Assembly (NCBI GenBank): GCA_021399435.1
Contig: JAJTUP010000034.1
Span: 248,001-312,000, forward strand
DNA: 64,000 nucleotides
Direction of reading: 5' to 3'
Source of the DNA: Diaporthe sp. PMI_573
Taxonomy: Eukaryota; Ascomycota; Sordariomycetes; Diaporthales; Diaporthaceae
A program made the translations under genes and the position numbers. Within the stretch, counting starts at the first letter, position 1, and the number at the start of each line of letters is the position of its first letter. Shown piece after piece: positions 8,340-61,982 of the stretch. The notes under the pieces are model-generated. The model saw only the letters and a list, made by a program, of their open reading frames with translations. It had not been told where the DNA came from and did no database searches.

Positions 8340-9872
8340 ATGGGCTTTTACTTGTATGACCAGTTACTCGGCCTTTTGATCTTCTTTAGTGTACTTTGCA
8401 CGATCACCGTCGGACTCCGCGTGTTTGTTAGGACCAAGGTCACCAAGGGAGCGTTCGGCTGGGATGATGTTGCACTTGTCATTTCATACGTGAGTCTCTA
8501 GTTTGCTTCTGATAATCAGCAACATCCAGTCTGTTCTCAGTAGCGTAGGATGACCTGAGCTAATGACACATGGCCTCTAGCTGCTCATGATGGTGTTTGT
8601 GGCTCTCTGTGTACTAGCTGTACGAGCCGGGATGGACTCATCTGAAGATGAGCCGTGGTTTAATGACCCTGCGGCTAGCAGGGTGAGTAATTCGTCATGC
8701 AGTTTTGCCCCCAATGACCGGTTCCTAAGACAGTTTCTAGTACGACTACGCAAAATACGTCGTCTGCTTCGTGATATCCGGAGTGGTTAAAATAAGCGTC
8801 GCATTGGTACTATATCGTCTGGACAGCCGTCCGACAGTTCGAACCATCATCATCATCGACAGTAAGCAGCTTCTGGATACAATCTTGACTTGACCCCTTC
8901 CAGAAGAAACACCTCCCCTCTGTGGCCTAGCCTCAAAGAACTTATTACGCTGGTAGTTTGAGATAGGCTATGGCCACACTGTGGCCCTTTAGTTCCCCTA
9001 TTTGTATGAAACCACTCCCTTGGTGCTCTGATAACTGACTCTGAATGCTGCAGTGGTCACATGCACTATTTGGAATTTGGTCACAGCTTTCGTGCTGTCA
9101 TTTGGCTGTATGAGGCTGAGCCCGTATGTTATCAACATGACGGTGTGCGAGAACATGTTCTATTCACAGGAGTCATCCTATGTGATCTATAACATCTTCC
9201 ATGTGCTCCTACCCATTTACATTCTTTGGAATGTGCAAATATCGAAGGCTCTCAAAGTGAGCGTGGTTGGACTGTTTAGTGTTGGGCTCCTGTAAGTTGG
9301 ATCTCTGACTGTCAAATTAGCTTTCTTTGTTTATTTCATCACACATTATCGAAGCCATGCACCCTCCATCGGGAGACGTCACTAATGCAAGCTATTGCTA
9401 CAGTGCTGCTATCGCCGCCATCATGAAGCTCCAGGTTCACTACGAAACATTCCACCCTCGAGACAACGACTCACTCACTAGGTGGTATTTGGCCATGATA
9501 TGGGCAATCACGGAGCACGGGCTGTCAATTTTCGCCAGCTCTGTGCTCGCCTTGCGACCGCTTGCAAGAATGGTGTCCAAGGGATGGGCATCCATCTCGA
9601 GCAGCTTCTACGGCGGGGGCAGCAAGGACGCCAAGTCCTCCGGCCAGGGTACCTCGAGTCGTGTCTCCAAAAAGACGAATTGGTCAGAGCCAACCGAGTC
9701 GAACGAGCTGGGCACAATTGGTGTTCGAAACGAAGTCTCAGTCCACAGCGAATACACTCCGGAAGGTCATGCGCAGGAACCATTGTACCTTGCTGAAGCA
9801 TATAATGGCAGCTCCGAGAGCCACAAGAGGTTGGTTGAAGCGAAGGCACAAGATGTGGCTGTTGCCGCTTGA
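8340..9872 (+). CDS. Fungal rhodopsin-type seven-helix integral membrane protein
   Basis: Exons 8340-8489, 8581-8682, 8741-8861, 9054-9291 and 9404-9872 give 359 residues. Exon 1 encodes the first helix and the hallmark of the fungal rhodopsin-domain (PTH11-related) family, RVFVRTKVTKGAFGWDD. Exon 3 encodes a helix with KISVALVLYRLD, and exon 4 holds two more helices, SYVIYNIFHVLLP among them. The C-terminus from about residue 270 is hydrophilic, Ser/Gly/Lys-rich and probably cytosolic. Proteins of this family are GPCR-like sensors of surface or nutrient cues. The ligand is unknown. Intron 3 (8862-9053) is a repetitive introner-like element described separately. The acceptor of intron 4 could also lie 12 bp upstream, at 9391. 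Confidence 0.75.
8862..9053 (+). repeat. Introner-like element family A, copy 1 (intron 3 of the rhodopsin-like gene)
   Basis: This 192-bp intron is similar end to end to the introns at 47666-47817 (plus) and 33376-33579 (minus), which lie in unrelated genes. The first 25 bases differ by one base from each of the other two. Bases 8956-8987 are identical to 47722-47753 over 32 bp. The last 23 bases differ by one from the 33-kb copy. A long imperfect hairpin forms between about 8917-8932 (gtggcctagcctcaaa) and 8957-8977, and a second perfect one is ggccaca-c-tgtggcc. It interrupts an ATG codon as A|TG. Confidence 0.9.
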
Positions 9873-32836: not shown

Positions 32837-34192
32837 TCATCTCTCCCACCAGTTATCCGCCGCATCATCACGTTCTGTATAACTAGGCGGCGGCCCATCA
32901 GGAGGCGGCACTGGTGGGGGCGTCGGGGACGAAGACGCCACCCTGCCACTGACCCTCTGAAATACTTGTTCCCGTGCCTTCTGTAACCTTACCCTCGCCT
33001 GTCTTACCACCTCATTCTTCTGGTCCGCCTCGCGCAGCAGTTCCATATGTCGCTGTGTCGCCGTTATCAGGTCGATGTTGAGGGACTGGGCGCAGTGGCG
33101 GACCTCGAGGTTCGACTGCTGGATCTTCTCGTGGAATGCCATGTCCGAGAAGATATTGTCAAAAAAGACGTCGCCGAGCAGGTTGCCCTGTGCTATCTTG
33201 ACAGGTGGCAAGGGGCGGACCATCGGCGACGCCCGCTGTGCCTGTGTCACCAGTGCGGTCGCCTGCCTGATGAGGTTCTCGGCCTTGTTGAGTGCGTTCC
33301 GCTCCATCATATCGGTGAATGTCCCACCGCCGTACATGTCTCTACGCGATGCGTGCAGGGCGTCCTCCATCGACACTACAGCATTCAGAGTCAGTTATCA
33401 AAGCCCCAAGGAAGTAGCTTGCTTCATGCCAATAGGGGTGAGGAGTGAGCCACAAGGCGGCCACAGCCTGTTTCAAAACCTGCAGCCCGTAAAGTCCTCA
33501 TTGTACGGGCTAAAGACGGGGTATGCTTTTTTTTTTTTTTTTTTGGAAGGGGTAAAGATTGTATCCAAAAGCTGCTTACTTAGGGCGCCGTTCAGCCGCG
33601 TCTGCGCCTGTGTGAGGATGTTGACCACCTGCCCCTCTCCCTCCGCCCGCGACCGCGCCTCCTTGTAGATCCGCAGCGCGTTGCTCGTCTCCCGTTCCCG
33701 CTGGTCCTCCTCGGGAAACCCCGGCGACGGCCCCGTGAATATAGACTCGTAGAGGCTGTCCAGGTCCCTCTGGGCCTCCATGTGCGTGGCCGCCCTGATC
33801 TCCAGCTCGCCGCGCACCGTCTTTGCGTCGGCCAGCATCTCGTCCAGGTTCTTCTTCATGACATCGGCCTGGTGCTCCTCCTGCAGCACATCGAAATACT
33901 CGCGCTCCTCCTTGGCGGCCCTGGCCTCGAACTTGTCCGCCTTGCCGCCGATCTTGAAGGCGAAGCGGCGCAGGACACTGTCGCGGTAGTGCTCATGTTC
34001 TCTGAGCTCCTGCTTGCGCCTGTAGCCGACCTGCTTCAGCCTCTCCGCCTGCTGTGCGACCTGCCTCTCGAGGTCGGCAACCTGGCGCTTCTGGGCCTGG
34101 AGGTCCGGGATGGCGCTGTCGGTCTGGTGAAGAATATTGAGCAGCTCTACGTTGCGCTCTGAGGTGTCTCTGATTTTGTCCTCGAGAGACAT
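32837..34192 (-). CDS. Coiled-coil hypothetical protein with Pro-rich C-terminus
   Basis: Exon 1 (34192-33580, ATG 34192) and exon 2 (33375-32837) give about 383 residues. Nearly the whole length is charged alpha-helix with heptads (QKRQVADLERQVAQQAERL; EKIQQSNLEVRHCAQSLNID). It ends in a Pro-rich tail (TPPPVPPPDGPPPSYTERDD) whose PPSY resembles a PPxY motif bound by WW domains. No family is recognised. The two exons are joined across a family A introner-like element that splits an ATG (Met) codon, CTA A|TG TCG. A cytoskeletal or membrane-trafficking role would be a guess. Confidence 0.65.
33376..33579 (-). repeat. Introner-like element family A, copy 2 (intron of the coiled-coil gene)
   Basis: A 204-bp intron on the minus strand. 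Its first 25 bases match copy 1 with one difference, and its last 23 bases (tgactctgaatgctgtag end) with one difference. The middle has diverged, with an A18 run (plus 33527-33544) and a local hairpin agcccgta...tacgggct at about 33486-33513. It lies in a gene unrelated to the other two carriers and again interrupts A|TG. Confidence 0.88.
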
Positions 34193-35017: not shown

Positions 35018-36511
35018 TCAAAGGCCGTGCTCCAGCAGGTAGGTGTTGGAAATCACCTTGAACCGTCGCCCGTCGTCAATGCACTTGTACACCAGGCCCT
35101 CGCCCTTGCTCTGCGCCGCTCGCTTCTGGAGGTCCTTGTGGCTGCTCGCAATCTTGGTGAGCGTGTTGTAGCCCAGCACGGGGACATGCTTGAGTCCCAG
35201 CTTCTTCGCCATGGCCTCCACTTCTCGCGGGTTGATGAAGTCCTGCCTGTCGATGTGAAACATCGCATAGACAAAGAACTCCTGTTCGCCTTCTGGGAGG
35301 CCCTCGCGGTTGCCCTGGATCGGTTCGCCACAAAGCTCCCCCTGTATCGCAATGTTGCGGCCGAGCTGAGACAGCTTGGCCGGCAGGTCGTGCCGGAGGG
35401 CCGTCTCCCAGTACCTGTAGCCCGCAGAGCCACCCACTTCCAGCTCGTTCTTGTCGACCTTGTTGCTGCAGACGCCGAACCGGGCACCCTGGGCCCCCTC
35501 GAGCACCGTGTTGGGCCCGACGTTCTCTGGCAGCGGGTTGAGCAAGCTGAAGTAAGGGCATGACTTCTTGACGAAGTAGACAACCATCGCCGTGCCGTCC
35601 ATCTTGACGCTCTCCTGATAGACAAACTTGTTGTATTTGTCTTTCTTGAACAGGTTCGGGCACTCCTCTACTCGCCTCAAGTCGGTCCTCTTGAAAACTT
35701 CCGTCGGGTACGGGCCGAGGCGCCGGTGCTCAGGCTGCTCGGGCTGGACTGGCCTCTCCTCCCACTTCTTGACCCCCAGCACCTCCGCCCAGTTCCTGTC
35801 GCGGTACATGACCAGCAGGGTCGCGTTGATCAACTCGACGTCTTTCTCCATCGGGCCGGCCGAGATGAACTGCCGCACCACCTCGAGCTTCCTCCAGATC
35901 TCTGGGAACGCCCGCACTGGCGTGATCACGCCCTGCGACACAATCATGTCTTCACCGCTACCAAACTTCTCCGTCTTGAGCCTCTGGCCGAGCTTTCCGT
36001 CCAGCATCTGGAGCTTTCTGGGATTGCCGAGGCCCTTGCCGAAACGGTCATCGGCGCCCGGCAGGAAAGAGTCGACCTGGAAGTACAGGACGAGTTCGCC
36101 CTCGCGGTACTGCCGGAATGGTATCTTGCAGGTCCAGCCATCGACCTCGGCAAAAGTGTGTCGCTTGTCGTACAACTCTATGTCGTGAATCTTCTTGATC
36201 ACTCGCAGACTGACAAGTCGCTGTGTGCCACTGTTGTCCGTCGTGGGCATCTCCGCTGTGACGTTGCCCTTTGGTGATGGGCCAGCTGCTACCAAATCGG
36301 TACAGACAGCAGGCTCGAGTCCTCTCAGGCAGGCGCGACCCTCGTGGCTCGTTTCTTCGCCATTTGTCGAAGTCTGCAACTTGGCACTGTCGTCCACCTT
36401 CAAATCGACTTTCAGTTCTGGAGTGGGTGCGGCGGCTTTAGCCTTTCCGGTGTATGCCGTTGGGTCAAAAGGCTGCAAGCTGCCAGCGACAGGGGCTTCT
36501 TGTAGAGCCAT
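35018..36511 (-). CDS. RNA ligase of the DRB0094 (Rnl5) type
   Basis: A single exon of 497 residues from ATG 36511. Residues about 130-280 resemble an OB-type N-terminal module. The nucleotidyltransferase core follows with motif I VKMDGTAMVVYF (Lys-x-Asp-Gly, the adenylated Lys), IQGELCGEPIQGN (motif III), GEGLVYKC (motif IV) and FKVISNTYLLEHG (motif V). This arrangement is that of ATP-dependent RNA ligases typified by Deinococcus DraRnl, which seal 3'-OH/5'-PO4 nicks through a ligase-AMP intermediate. It is not the tRNA ligase Trl1. The biological RNA substrate in fungi is unknown. The frame stays open for 62 codons upstream of the ATG without another ATG. Confidence 0.8.
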   Translation of the reverse strand: MALQEAPVAGSLQPFDPTAYTGKAKAAAPTPELKVDLKVDDSAKLQTSTNGEETSHEGRACLRGLEPAVCTDLVAAGPSPKGNVTAEMPTTDNSGTQRLVSLRVIKKIHDIELYDKRHTFAEVDGWTCKIPFRQYREGELVLYFQVDSFLPGADDRFGKGLGNPRKLQMLDGKLGQRLKTEKFGSGEDMIVSQGVITPVRAFPEIWRKLEVVRQFISAGPMEKDVELINATLLVMYRDRNWAEVLGVKKWEERPVQPEQPEHRRLGPYPTEVFKRTDLRRVEECPNLFKKDKYNKFVYQESVKMDGTAMVVYFVKKSCPYFSLLNPLPENVGPNTVLEGAQGARFGVCSNKVDKNELEVGGSAGYRYWETALRHDLPAKLSQLGRNIAIQGELCGEPIQGNREGLPEGEQEFFVYAMFHIDRQDFINPREVEAMAKKLGLKHVPVLGYNTLTKIASSHKDLQKRAAQSKGEGLVYKCIDDGRRFKVISNTYLLEHGL

Positions 36512-38037
36512 TTCTGTAGCGTTTGTTTGAAATGGCCTGCTCGGCTGTTTGTCCGTTAGTGCTTGCAGCCCTCCAAGGGTTTGGGAAGGGAAAAGCTCTT
36601 GGATGTTGAGGAGCGCGGAAGAGACAAACCACCGGCTGAGGGAATCGTAAACTTGGGATGTCTTGATGCCCCGGAAGCAGCGACCGGTCACGGGCACAAA
36701 AAGAAAGAAAAGCGAGGTCTGTGCCTAGATGGAGTTGCTGAACAACTGAACATACCTCACGTGTGACACGGCCTCCAGCAAAGGCTCAAGCTTGTGTGGT
36801 GTTTGGTGTTGCTGTCGGCACTTTCAGTTTCCCTGGTCCAATACTAGTATGCTTGGGTAAGCACCTGGTCCGGGTCTTGGCTTGAGAACAAAGATGGCAA
36901 TGGGCACTTGGTCAGGGTCAAGGCTATTGTGGGAAGTAAGCGGATTCGGCTGAACCCCTTGGAGTAGAGATTCGTGATGAAAGATTCGAGGGAATGTGAT
37001 CTGGTGCGTAAAAGCACCGGGGAAAGAGAAATGTGGTTTGAGAGATGGGCTTTTCCGGGGCTCTTTAAGTAACAAACCTTACGTGCAACTCAGTGGTGAG
37101 AAGTTGAAAGTGAGAACAACGAGGGCTTCGGATGCTTGACTGATGGCTTGTAGCAAGAATAGGGAGCAAGGGGCAAGCGGATCTGCGAGGGTGTAAGTCG
37201 TCCAGTAGTCGTCCGGTAAAATCGCCAAGTGTCCAGACAAATCCAGTCAAGTGATGGTGTGCAGGCTCAAAGACTTCGGAGAGCAGACGAGAGCTGGAAT
37301 CAGGAGCGGTGCCAAGACACGGAGCAAACCGTTGATGGTAGTCTGGTGCTTGGGGAGCGGTGCACCTCCCGTCAAATGGGCAAAGGAATTGCAGCAACTG
37401 GCTTGTAATAGACGGGGGTCTTGCCTAGTATTGGGAGCTCAACTCTCTGGTAGTTGGTTGCGAGTCAAATGTTGGGTAAGGTTGTCGTGCGAGCAGACTG
37501 GGCCAAGATCAGATGTCTGAGAGACCTGCCTTGGACGTTGCAGGATGACCCCGAAAGTTGAAGGGGATATCTAAGTGCGAGCAGGCAGATCTACAGGAGT
37601 ATGTAGTTACACAGGTTAAAAGCGAGACCACTTATCAAGCAACATCATCCTGATTTCCCGTCGCTGCAGCGTAACGATTTAGCTTGAACATGTTGCGTTA
37701 GATCAAATCATCCGATTAGATATCATACAATGCTGATAACAGTAGGCTCGAAATACGGTCCTCCCGGCACTTCTTTGTTCTTAAGGTACCGATGCTTAAG
37801 GGTTGACTAACAATGCTTTATTGTCTTTGGAGAGCGCCTACTGCAGTCCAGACCATCAGGATTGTGTTTGAGAAATTGGGGTTCTTTGTTTCCCGTTTTC
37901 AAGTCAATCATTCATGTAAAAATATGTAAAGGCATTTCCAGTTGCATCCTGACGAAGGCTCCTAGTTCGCAGATTCCAAACCAATTTTGCACTGAGGGGA
38001 ATATTTGAACCGCACAGGAGCGTTGACATACGGCATT
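36512..38037. other. Intergenic
   Basis: About 1.5 kb between the divergent RNA ligase and a small membrane-protein gene. Several short overlapping frames have no ATG start or domain. No repeat was seen. Confidence 0.5.
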
Positions 38038-38710: not shown

Positions 38711-38712
38711 TA

Positions 38713-38755
38713 ACGTCCCCGGCCCGGCTTCCGCCCCCCCCCTGCTTCCGCCCCC
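38713..38755 (+). repeat. Left terminal inverted repeat
   Basis: Begins acgtccccggcccggcttcc, then C9, TG and a second ttccgccccc. It pairs with 40520-40562 with one mismatch. The internal repetition of the ttccgccccc unit may be a transposase-binding site. Confidence 0.95.
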
Positions 38756-40519: not shown

Positions 40520-40562
40520 GGGGGCGGAATCAGGGGGGGGGCGGAAGCCGGGCCGGGGACGT
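40520..40562 (-). repeat. Right terminal inverted repeat
   Basis: Reverse complement of 38713-38755 with a single difference. The adjacent TA at 40563-40564 is the target duplication. Confidence 0.95.
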
Positions 40563-40564
40563 TA

Positions 40565-47110: not shown

Positions 47111-48623
<1,513 letters not shown>

Positions 48624-52201: not shown

Positions 52202-54335
52202 TTAGAGTTTCCTTTCGCTCACCCTGACCTTCAAATCTGTCTGCTTAACGAACCACACGTTGTACGTTTTCAGTTCCGCGTTCGGGTCCGCCAGCTCGAG
52301 GTCAAATTTACGGACCAGCTTTGGAACCAGCTTGCACATTTCCATCATTGAAATATTTTTGCCCAGACAAGTTCTTGCACCATGGCCGAACTGGAGAAGG
52401 TGTGGTGTGGTGTTAGGAACGACTCCACGCACCCATATGTCGTGATACCAAAGCAAGTGCGTAAACGGGTAAAGACTCACTGTTAGAAAATATCGATCCA
52501 TCTTACGATCGGTCTCCTCGTCGCCAGTCAGCCATCTTTCTACATATTATGTTAGTCCTGCTACGGGTCCTGAAGTGATGCGTTCTGGAACATTCCAAAA
52601 CATGAAAGACGGGGATCCGTGGAAGGAGAAGAATGATACTGACCAGGCCGGAAGTCGTCAACTCGACTGCCGAAGACTTCTGCGTTGCGATGTGCAACCC
52701 AGGAGTTGATACCGACGTATGTCTGAATTCACAGTTTTTGTCAGCCGGCCTGAGTCATTCATCTGCAGGGGGAGATAAGAAGAGCGTTCATAGGCTTCGG
52801 TTTGCCATATTACGAGAAACTCACCCCTTCTGGGAAGAATTGGCCGGCGAGCTGAGCTCCTCCCTTAGGAACCACTCTCTGCATCGGCAGGCCCGCCGCA
52901 GGGTGCAGCCTTATAGCCTCTTTGACGACTGCTTGAAGGTAAGGCATCTTCTGCGTATCGCTGAAAGTAAGACTCTCGCTGATCTCTCCATTAGAAATCA
53001 TCGTGTCGATTTCGGCTCGTAGCTATCAACTCCATGTAAGCTTCAAGGTCGGGGCCACTTCAGAATGACTTGTAGTGGCGGCAAGTGCAATTCGTTGTAC
53101 CTTGGCAAGAGACTCAGGATGCTTCAACAAGTTCCACATCACGGCTGTAAGACTGATACTCGTCGTATCACTGCCGGCGTTAATATTCGCTGCGGCCGTG
53201 CTGTAGACTTCGAAGTCTGTGAAGTAGTCGGGCTTCTCCTTATGCAACCGCAGGGCACGTGCCAGGAAGAAGTTATCGCCGATAGTTTTGTCCGTCGCAT
53301 ATTGCTTCATCTCTTCCCTCACAAATTTGATGATCTTGACCATTGCCTGGGCCCCTGCGGCCCCGTATAAAAACAGAAATTTGTGCAGTTCTGGGTAGAT
53401 ACCGACGCGGGCTGCGTAGACTATGAAGAAATCGAGAGACCGGATCAGGTTCATGTCGTCTTGACCAGCATCGAGGAAGCCGAAGCGCTTTGCTACCTGT
53501 ACTCGTCATTGACATTAGCTACATGTGGATTCAATTCGAGATGGCGCGAGCTTACTGTTATGTTTCCAATAACATCAAAAGCATAGCACTGCATCCATTG
53601 TTGTAAATCCACTGCAGTTCCAGCCCTATTTCGACGCGTCAACAACCAGCTCCCAATTTTACCTCATGCCAGATGTAACTTTCCAATTCGAACTCACCGA
53701 GCAATCTCGCGGAACCTAGTCTCTACCAAGGCGATGCATTCGTCAACCTGTGCTTCCATCTTGACCAATGACGACATGGTGCTATCCATCGTATATCAGC
53801 AAACATCGCATTTTGGGAACGCATCAGCATATTATAGGAAATGGGAGAACCTCGTCTCACAGACGAGTGATGGGAAAGTAGAGAAACTGGAGTAAACACA
53901 CTATAGTCCTGCTAGCTTCTTCCTGATCGCGACATGCTTGTCATTTTCGGGCATCTGGAACATGTTCCAATCCTTTTTGAAAGGCAGCCCGCTTGCAGAA
54001 TACCATGGCCCCTTTGTAAAGGTGGTTCCTAGGCCATAGATAGCCTTGACAGCGGCAGGATCATCGAGCGAGTATTCGTTGGGTGCGATACGGACCACCG
54101 GGCCATACTTGCGATGCAAATCGATGTTGAGCCGTGGGAGCACCCCAGTCCATACTTTATGCAGATACCACAACCGACTGAAACGTGCCGAGAAGGGCCC
54201 TGGAATAGATCTCAGTGGGGAGATTGCCGCTCGTATCAAAGAGTAGATTATCGTAACGCCGGCTAGAGCTATTGCACACCGCAGAGCTAGCCCCGGGGTG
54301 CTCGTGGTGCCAAATATCGCGTGCAAGGCGTCCAT
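52202..54335 (-). CDS. Cytochrome P450 monooxygenase, eight exons
   Basis: Exons 54335-53902, 53781-53698, 53625-53556, 53496-53101, 53022-52825, 52722-52644, 52539-52481 and 52390-52202 join to 502 residues. An N-terminal anchor (LALRCAIALAGVTIIYSLI) precedes IPGPFSARFSRLWYLHK. P450 motifs are the I-helix NINAGSDTTS, the K-helix KEAIRLHP, FRPERW across exons 6-7 and the haem loop FGHGARTCLGKN. It resembles fungal P450s of the pisatin demethylase type, which oxidise small aromatic or plant compounds. The substrate is unknown. Intron 6 (52540-52643) is a family B repetitive intron placed inside the PERW motif. Confidence 0.88.
52540..52643 (-). repeat. Introner-like element family B, copy 2 (intron 6 of the second P450)
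   Basis: A 104-bp intron in phase 1, inside the codon for the Glu of PERW. It is homologous to 48066-48170 over most of its length, including the donor gtcagt, the 21-bp identical block (52588-52608, complement) and the agcagg.ctaac branch region, while the surrounding exons are unrelated. Confidence 0.88.
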
Positions 54336-60760: not shown

Positions 60761-61385
60761 CGGCACCCCTACCCGCCTAACCGCCTATCGGCTAACCGCC
60801 GATACCGCCTAGTACGCCGACCGCCTACCCGCCTACCTCTACCCTCCTACCGCCTACCCTCCTACCTCCTACCTCCTACCTCCTACCCTCCACCCTCCAC
60901 CCTACCTCCTACCCTCCTACCCTCCTACCCTCCTACCTCCTACCCTCCTACCCTCCTACCCTCCTACCTCCTACCCTCCTACCCTCCCTACCCTCCTACC
61001 TCCTCCCCTCCTACCCTCCTACCCCTACCCTCCTACCCTCCTACCCTACCCTCCTACCCTCCTACCCTCCTACCCGCCTACCCTCCTACCCTCCTACCCT
61101 CCTACCCTCCTACCCTCCTACCCCTACCCCTACCCTCCTACCCTCCTACCCTCCTACCCTCCTACCCTCCTACCCTCCTACCTCCTACCCTCCTCCCTCC
61201 TACCCTCCCTCCTACGCCTCCCCTACCCTCTACCCTCCACCCTCCTACCCTCTACCCTCCTACCCCCTACCCTACCCTCCTACCCCCTACCCTCCTACCA
61301 CCCCTTACCCCTCCTACCCTCCTACCCTCCTACCTCCTACCCTCCTACCCTCCTACCCTCCTACCCTCCTACCTCCTACTTTCCA
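60761..61385. repeat. Pyrimidine-rich minisatellite, unit about cctaccctc
   Basis: A degenerate tandem array of about 620 bp. It begins with accgcctaa/ccgcctacc units (60768-60835), then becomes almost pure C/T/A with cctaccctc as the main unit and variants cctacctcc, ctaccc and ccccta. G is nearly absent from the plus strand after 60836. The complementary strand is gagggtagg repeats with four or more GGG runs at short spacing, which can form G-quadruplexes or triplex. The units change gradually along the array, as in unequal exchange or slippage. Confidence 0.95.
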
Positions 61386-61982
61386 ACCTCTTAACTTCTA
61401 TAGTAGCTATCTCCTAACTTTCTATATTTTAACATTTTTATTTCTAACCCCTTAACCTTTTGCTTTGTCATGTTCTATGAGAGACCAGGAAAACCACATA
61501 TCATCATGGCATGTAATCCTTACAGACGTGGAAGTGGTGGCCTTGTTAGGGCCTTTTATAAGGCCACTGGAAGCGGAGAGGACCAGATAGTCCCGACAAT
61601 TACATTCCCAACCACTTGATTTCACCGCCGGGGGTTTGTGAGGGGGGGGGGCGAGACTCTTTAATCAGAATATTTGCTCCTCGAACTAGAAGCGACATGA
61701 ATCCAGCTCCAAAGGCGGCGCTCTCGCTGTAGGACACACCCCTGGTGAACGAACCCCGAAGAGTCACCTACTCGTGGGACCGCCTCCCTGTGATACCCTC
61801 CAGTAGGATATCGTCATAGAGATTGACCTCCAGCGGGATAACCTCCTGCAGACCCACCTCTTCAATACGTTTCCCGCTATGCTTTCCGAAATTCAGCCTT
61901 GCTTCCTTGTCGTGTGCTCGTCGAACGTGTCTCGTTCATGGGTCTCGGAGACAGTATTAACGCCTTGATGCACTGGTTGTCT
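61386..61982. other. Intergenic
   Basis: About 600 bp between the minisatellite and the end of the TMA7 gene. A near-palindrome ggccttttataaggcc at 61548-61563 and a G9 run at 61641-61650 are present. No gene was seen. Confidence 0.45.

Follow-up and report, generated by a model that had tools for sequence, protein, structure and literature searches.

The introns closest to those considered here have been described in three settings, namely the introner-like elements of Dothideomycetes (PMC4457414), the sister stwintrons and type-2 cropped introns of the Hypoxylaceae and Xylariaceae (PMC8469720; PMC12403724), and the DNA-transposon introners of algae and protists (PMC9860276). One type-2 cropped intron given as an example, in the parts of the two papers drawn on here, is 93 nt long and holds a central TTTCTAGAAA (PMC8469720; PMC12403724). 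How ascomycete introners are copied remains unsettled. In the relevant sections of these sources, an RNA-linked path is argued for other ascomycete introners (PMC9860276; PMC8469720), ascomycete introners are called an outlier (PMC9860276), the joining of intron RNA at breaks is proposed (PMC12403724), and reverse splicing is reported as having been argued by others (PMC8469720).

The window, that is, the whole stretch of 64 kb that was analysed, is part of an assembly of 83,732,395 bp in 217 contigs. It contains three copies of one repeated intron (family A) and two of another (family B), within a gene content that we take to be Pezizomycotina-like. From its sequence, family A is best explained as a U2-type spliceosomal intron that would have been copied into the exons of unrelated genes and been active recently. 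The original prediction had dealt with the three family A copies; the second family, a preference for A^TG sites, an inherited flank base and an uneven distribution go beyond it.

Copies in the window and in the assembly

Copy 1 of family A (8862..9053, plus strand, 192 nt) lies in a fungal-rhodopsin-like gene, copy 2 (33376..33579, minus strand, 204 nt, with an internal A-run, clade T1) in a coiled-coil gene, and copy 3 (47666..47817, plus strand, 152 nt, internally shorter) in a proline iminopeptidase gene. The junction reads A^TG in all three, and in copy 1 it splits a Met codon, with A at −1 and T at +1. The coordinates originally predicted for these introns proved exact, each running from GTAAGC to (C/T)AG, and their predicted homology from donor to acceptor was borne out, all three belonging to one family. 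Their likeness is as had been described: compared with copy 1, copies 2 and 3 each have one changed base in their first 25 nt and one and three changed bases, respectively, in their last 24 nt, and a 32-nt core (8956..8987, plus strand, containing the hairpin GGCCACA-C-TGTGGCC) recurs without change in copy 3 (47722-47753). In the repeat listing of the window, the same family A matches appear as repeats D4 and D6 and as pairs I3 and I4. The host exons had been called unrelated, and Pfam searches and alignments agree: the hosts are a Fung_rhodopsin-like protein, an alpha/beta-hydrolase (the proline iminopeptidase of copy 3) and, for the coiled coil of copy 2, a protein with no Pfam match. The Fung_rhodopsin match of the copy 1 host is weak (23.3 bits, below the family cut-off of 27 bits). 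The predicted fold of copy 1 has a z of −2.58, with 3 of 200 shuffles equally good and a covariation term of −0.23, and Rfam gave for its region a single match of 15.2 bits, far under the gathering score of 40 bits.

Further copies, whose absence from the genome would have spoken against an introner-like element, are abundant. The 22-mer of the 5' end (at most three mismatches) has 175 genome matches and the 20-mer of the 3' end (at most two mismatches) has 135, against one match for each reversed control, and 102 full-length copies were read. In the similarity searches, the best 40 of 165 candidates were scored with copy 1 as the query and the best 40 of 126 with copy 2. A profile search was run on the loci examined (60 from the two family A searches, 30 from the family B search, 30 short stretches and the window) and returned 117 raw family A hits. 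Seven repeats, six partial hits and both hits to a copy that lacks its GT (L059/L074) were set aside; the 102 copies kept still contain one segmental duplicate pair (L014/L015) and one copy with an unsure left boundary (L033). The loci fetched by element similarity (L001-L060) supply 68 of these copies. For 24 of the 30 short loci, the 5' end has no 3'-pattern match among those listed, so that this subset is biased against ^TG. The copies read measure 152-205 nt, and 79 of the 102 fall between 187 and 194 nt. An all-against-all comparison of their junction peptides produced five matches. One is the segmental duplicate, one pairs two readings of the locus L113 that overlap, two span 15 residues and seem to come from the element itself, and one joins a distant transporter pair with 23% identity.

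Family B is represented in the window at 48066..48170 (plus strand, 105 nt, GTCAGT..CTAAC..TTAG), within the same proline iminopeptidase gene as family A copy 3, and at 52540..52643 (minus strand, 104 nt, a TTCCAGAA variant), the two forming repeat pair I1. Its core has 232 genome matches against none for the control, its length is about 104 nt, and 54 copies were kept from 61 raw hits, three being unfitted and the rest repeats. The self-symmetry of the three copies that were shuffled was reached by none of 300 shuffles, and two of the three hold a central TTCTAGAA. Family B donors vary (GTCAGT, GTTCGT, GTTAGT and GTGAGT, at intron positions 3-4) though the bodies are nearly identical. Three family B copies in unrelated genes are identical across all 104 nt, and the closest family A pairs share 97.9% identity with gaps counted; copying, that of family A included, therefore looks recent.

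Both families are unevenly distributed. Eleven contigs (C35, C101, C124, C138, C145, C146, C160, C161, C169, C173 and C177), which were picked after the counts had been seen and make up 9.9% of the assembly, hold 70 of the family A places and 59 of the family B places among the 100 listed for each; the lists run to 100 places and are ordered by contig within mismatch class, which makes them an uneven sample. The 60 family A loci, of about 3.2 kb each, contain 13 extra family A hits and 21 family B hits (a few of which are pieces of one element or come from overlapping loci), against about 0.4 and 0.5 expected at the genome mean. Accessory regions, a mixed assembly and expression are candidate causes of this clustering. 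As for other features of the window, an inverted repeat of 45 nt (98% complementary, arms 38711-38755 and 40520-40564, 1764 nt apart) is possibly a small terminal-inverted-repeat element, a long degenerate tandem array of CTCCTACC-like units occupies 60821-61420, and 35018-36724 on the minus strand encodes a protein related to the RNA ligase of Naegleria gruberi (PDB 5cot, E 3.2e-33).

Splice signals and insertion without duplication

Each family A copy appears to carry its own donor, branch motif and acceptor. Among the 102 copies, the donor is GT in 100 and GC in two, one of the latter being L033, where the boundary was forced, no GT stands at the expected position and the donor is not clear; the acceptor is CAG in 60 and TAG in 42. 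The motif CTRAY was found in the last 45 nt of 98 copies, its A lying 15 nt before the 3' end in 89. In copy 1, the putative branch motif is CTGAC (9035..9039, plus strand; its position read from the sequence), with the A likewise 15 nt before the 3' end. Retention of a family A copy would bring in an in-frame stop in all 56 frame-clear copies, and retention of family B would cause a stop or frameshift in 41 of 42. For the 68 family A copies with at least 450 nt on each side, the element was removed and reading through the joined exons was compared with 5000 random window positions. A sense run of at least 300 nt was found in 60 of the 68 (51% at random), the sense run was the longer one in 59 (again 51% at random), and the mean run was 697 nt in sense and 357 nt in antisense, with 389 nt at random. 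The exceptions are nine copies in which the longer run is not in sense and eight with no 300-nt sense run. The coding context of family B is similar (sense run of at least 300 nt in 49 of 52 copies, sense longer in 46 of 52), and in 35 of 37 multi-hit loci, some of which overlap, all elements lie on one strand. Family A copies are accordingly read here as introns that the spliceosome would remove. At C35:422437-425717 (L059/L074), a family B intron end directly abuts a family A copy without its first GT, and the two elements may be removed as one intron.

No target-site duplication was detected at family A copies. Exact flank repeats of at least 4 nt were found in none of the 102, and those of 2-3 nt occurred at the level of a mispaired control; a form of repeat that co-opts letters of the splice sites reached 4 nt in 2% of copies and 5-6 nt in none, as rates taken without a control. 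Four host genes chosen for their conservation (a PMCA-type ATPase, a GH3 beta-glucosidase, the proline iminopeptidase and an acyl-CoA dehydrogenase) were aligned with PDB relatives, three alignments each and 12 in total, and in all four the junction is free of gaps; seven residues upstream of it, one iminopeptidase alignment shows a gap of a single residue. The junction Met is conserved in the three homologs shown for the ATPase and for the GH3 enzyme and is not conserved for the iminopeptidase and the acyl-CoA dehydrogenase, so that in these two of the four comparisons the ATG need not be ancestral. An origin of the ATG as a 3-nt scar was considered and is not supported, since P-type ATPase and GH3 homologs align there without a gap and carry the Met themselves.

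Comparison sequences from the same genome, which are paralogs and not orthologs, point the same way. The PMCA-type ATPase gene (C1) is split at residue 131, and its paralogs on C196 (residues 2-201, 72%) and C152 (residues 2-177) are unsplit; GH3 paralogs on C141 and C24 are unsplit through residue 85, the junction in the gene that bears the introner. Among DNA-level paralogs no empty site was found, the sole DNA-level relative detected being the L014/L015 duplicate, which bears the same introns. Insertion thus appears to have been seamless, with the message apparently unchanged where it was compared.

Landing site and the inherited exon base

The junctions of the 102 family A copies read A^TG in 37 (one of them with the unsure boundary), ^ATG in nine and AT^G in two, and hold no ATG in 54, against a background of 1.67% per position per offset. 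In the similarity-fetched loci L001-L060 the count is 30 of 68; with L033 and one duplicate set aside, it becomes 36 of 100 overall and 29 of 66 in L001-L060. Clades T2 and C3 of family A occupy mostly non-ATG sites, and family B stands at A^TG in 2 of 54 copies. The ATG at these junctions is an in-frame Met in 25 of 30 cases, against 52-57% expected. Codon-level targeting of Met codons was dropped, however, because the phase distribution of 20/29/10 (n = 59) matches the position-weight expectation of 0.316/0.466/0.217 and is explained by base context. One locus (L024, C145:356818-359969) contains three family A elements and one family B element, and two of these family A copies lie within a single ATGG, as A^TGG and AT^GG; a tandem unit made of the intron plus one base was rejected, as two insertions explain the pair. 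The context CAG^G is generally a good one for 3' splicing. It is rare in family A (5 of the 60 CAG copies).

The exon base that follows the intron is inherited along the element tree. The tree was built from family A bodies with 8 nt trimmed off each end and is weak, 67 of its 99 inner branches being open. Mapped on it, the +1 base requires 22 changes against 42.3 ± 2.2 when shuffled, and the −1 base 36 against 47.5 ± 2.2 (none of 500 shuffles as low in either case); the +2 base requires 39 against 46.7 ± 2.1 (1 of 300 as low). Thirteen other flank positions between −10 and +10 gave nothing comparable, the nearest being −6, with 23 of 300 shuffles as low. When branches under 80 were collapsed, leaving 33 inner nodes and 100 rows, +1 required 26 changes against 45.2 and −1 required 41 against 49.5, again with none of 500 shuffles as low for each. 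The shuffles do not fully model the relatedness of the copies. Among 102 close family A pairs (at least 93% identity), +1 is shared by 72% against 37% and −1 by 61% against 31%, whereas the 299 close family B pairs share +1 and −1 at chance (24% against 26%); no site preference or flank sharing was detectable in family B. Beyond +2, the exon flanks of close family A copies are little above chance likeness, and a long donor flank is therefore not carried along.

Inheritance of +1 is also seen within six groups of the tree (90 copies), which were drawn by hand, with C3 joining two neighbouring groups. Nearest neighbours, whose identities here include the element ends, share +1 at a rate of 0.793 against 0.655 ± 0.053 (0 of 1000 shuffles), and sharing of −1 is not significant (0.555 against 0.477, 115 of 1000). 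The consensus sequences of the sister clades T1 and T2 do not differ over the 19 nt at either end, yet all 18 T1 copies have T at +1 and 13 of 15 T2 copies have G.

Copying mechanism and comparison with known introners

Family A is almost certainly an introner-like element, as the original prediction had proposed: near-identical introns stand in many unrelated genes, with their own splice signals and no target-site duplication. The fuller explanation, in which an introner-like element spreads by RNA-linked, flank-matching copying, is judged likely as a whole, and its flank-matching step taken by itself is put forward tentatively. The mostly sense, exon-bound, seamless and duplication-free insertion favours an RNA-linked path. 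On such a path, an RNA-linked copy of the intron would keep one or more nucleotides of the downstream exon, starting from the first, and would enter a target that matches this first nucleotide and often has A on the left. Parent and daughter copies would thereby have +1 in common. Family B, which resides in the same genome, would be placed without regard to flanks. The inherited base would be read most simply as a sign that what is copied extends beyond the 3' splice site by one nucleotide or more, and that insertion takes place where this base is matched. Single-nucleotide matching might occur, for example, by strand transfer or by template switching of a reverse transcriptase at a break. In its most specific form, the proposal is a speculative one: the unit that moves in family A would be, instead of the excised intron, the intron together with one or more nucleotides of the exon downstream, matched at the target through a single nucleotide, with family B flank-blind. 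If this is true, two or more mechanisms would operate among fungal introners, and the +1 base, as a heritable tag, would allow chains of intron gain to be traced from donor to daughter.

Ordinary ascomycete reverse splicing of the free excised intron into DNA or mRNA, with A^TG and +1 arising from spliceosome preference or from the survival of insertions, is a possible but doubtful alternative. It has been proposed for fungal elements in the parts of PMC8469720 and PMC9860276 considered here, family B fits it, and it agrees with the sense orientation of most family A copies, their exon-bound position, their seamless insertion where compared and their freedom from duplications. A free excised intron carries no exon base, however, so that a +1 base inherited between close family A copies is unexpected under this and any flank-blind model; the +1 base differs between clades that share a consensus at the splice ends, and the rarity of CAG^G likewise speaks against reverse splicing.

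The main alternative to flank matching would be an element-encoded, guide-like choice of target, in which subfamily-specific internal bases pick the site and the inheritance of +1 merely follows the element tree. T1 and T2, which differ in +1, do differ in majority base at ten internal columns as well, but of the 110 columns that vary among the 19 copies of clade C1a, even the best is associated with +1 only at p = 0.038, uncorrected; no internal column is a convincing predictor of +1, and no complementarity came to notice. This choice of target is considered unlikely.

More improbable still is a non-autonomous, MITE-like DNA transposon that is spliceable by chance, like many introners of algae and protists. 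Family A has a short imperfect terminal complementarity (GCAGC..GCTGC), and the whole-element symmetry of one copy (L002) was matched by only 9 of 300 shuffles. Across the four family A copies shuffled, however, whole-element symmetry was matched by 70, 9, 178 and 44 of 300 shuffles and that of the terminal 30 nt by 33, 23, 3 and 116, and the absence of duplications in 102 copies, the sense runs of 60 of 68 copies and the single strand shared in 35 of 37 multi-hit loci all argue against a transposon, as does the account of ascomycete introners, in the sections of PMC9860276 used here, as an outlier without terminal inverted repeats or target-site duplications. Within the loci examined, further matches to the element were partial, and neither a longer relative with a transposase nor large numbers of intergenic and antisense copies came to notice. 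A spread of old introns together with their exons, through paralogous genes or gene conversion, describes the one segmental duplicate pair (L014/L015) and is already contradicted for all other copies, whose junction peptides are unrelated and whose flanks, in close copies, are little above chance likeness past +2.

As repeated spliceable inserts, family A copies resemble the DNA-transposon introners of algae and protists, as far as these are described in the text drawn on here; they differ in having no target-site duplication, no clear terminal inverted repeat and both splice sites on the element (PMC9860276). From sister stwintrons and type-2 cropped introns, family A differs in being little symmetric and in its exon bias, of which the parts of the papers considered report none (PMC8469720; PMC12403724). 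The GGT start of [D1,2] sister stwintrons is not general here, G standing at −1 in 21 of 102 family A copies and 13 of 54 family B copies. Inheritance of a flank base by one family was not encountered in the portions of the literature surveyed, and no claim is made that it is absent from print. An inherited flank base in family A and none in the co-resident family B form a signature that could separate flank-blind from flank-matching models and that could be read in existing genome sequences, without new experiments. Family B is like the type-2 cropped introns in its length of about 104 nt, its strong self-symmetry, its central TTCTAGAA in two of the three copies shuffled and its lack of a detectable site preference, to judge from the same partial accounts (PMC8469720; PMC12403724). 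Family A appears to carry the sequence-level features of ascomycete introner-like elements and, compared by description with the part of the published account used here, differs from those of Fulvia, Dothistroma and Zymoseptoria in its A^TG preference and its inherited +1 base (PMC4457414).
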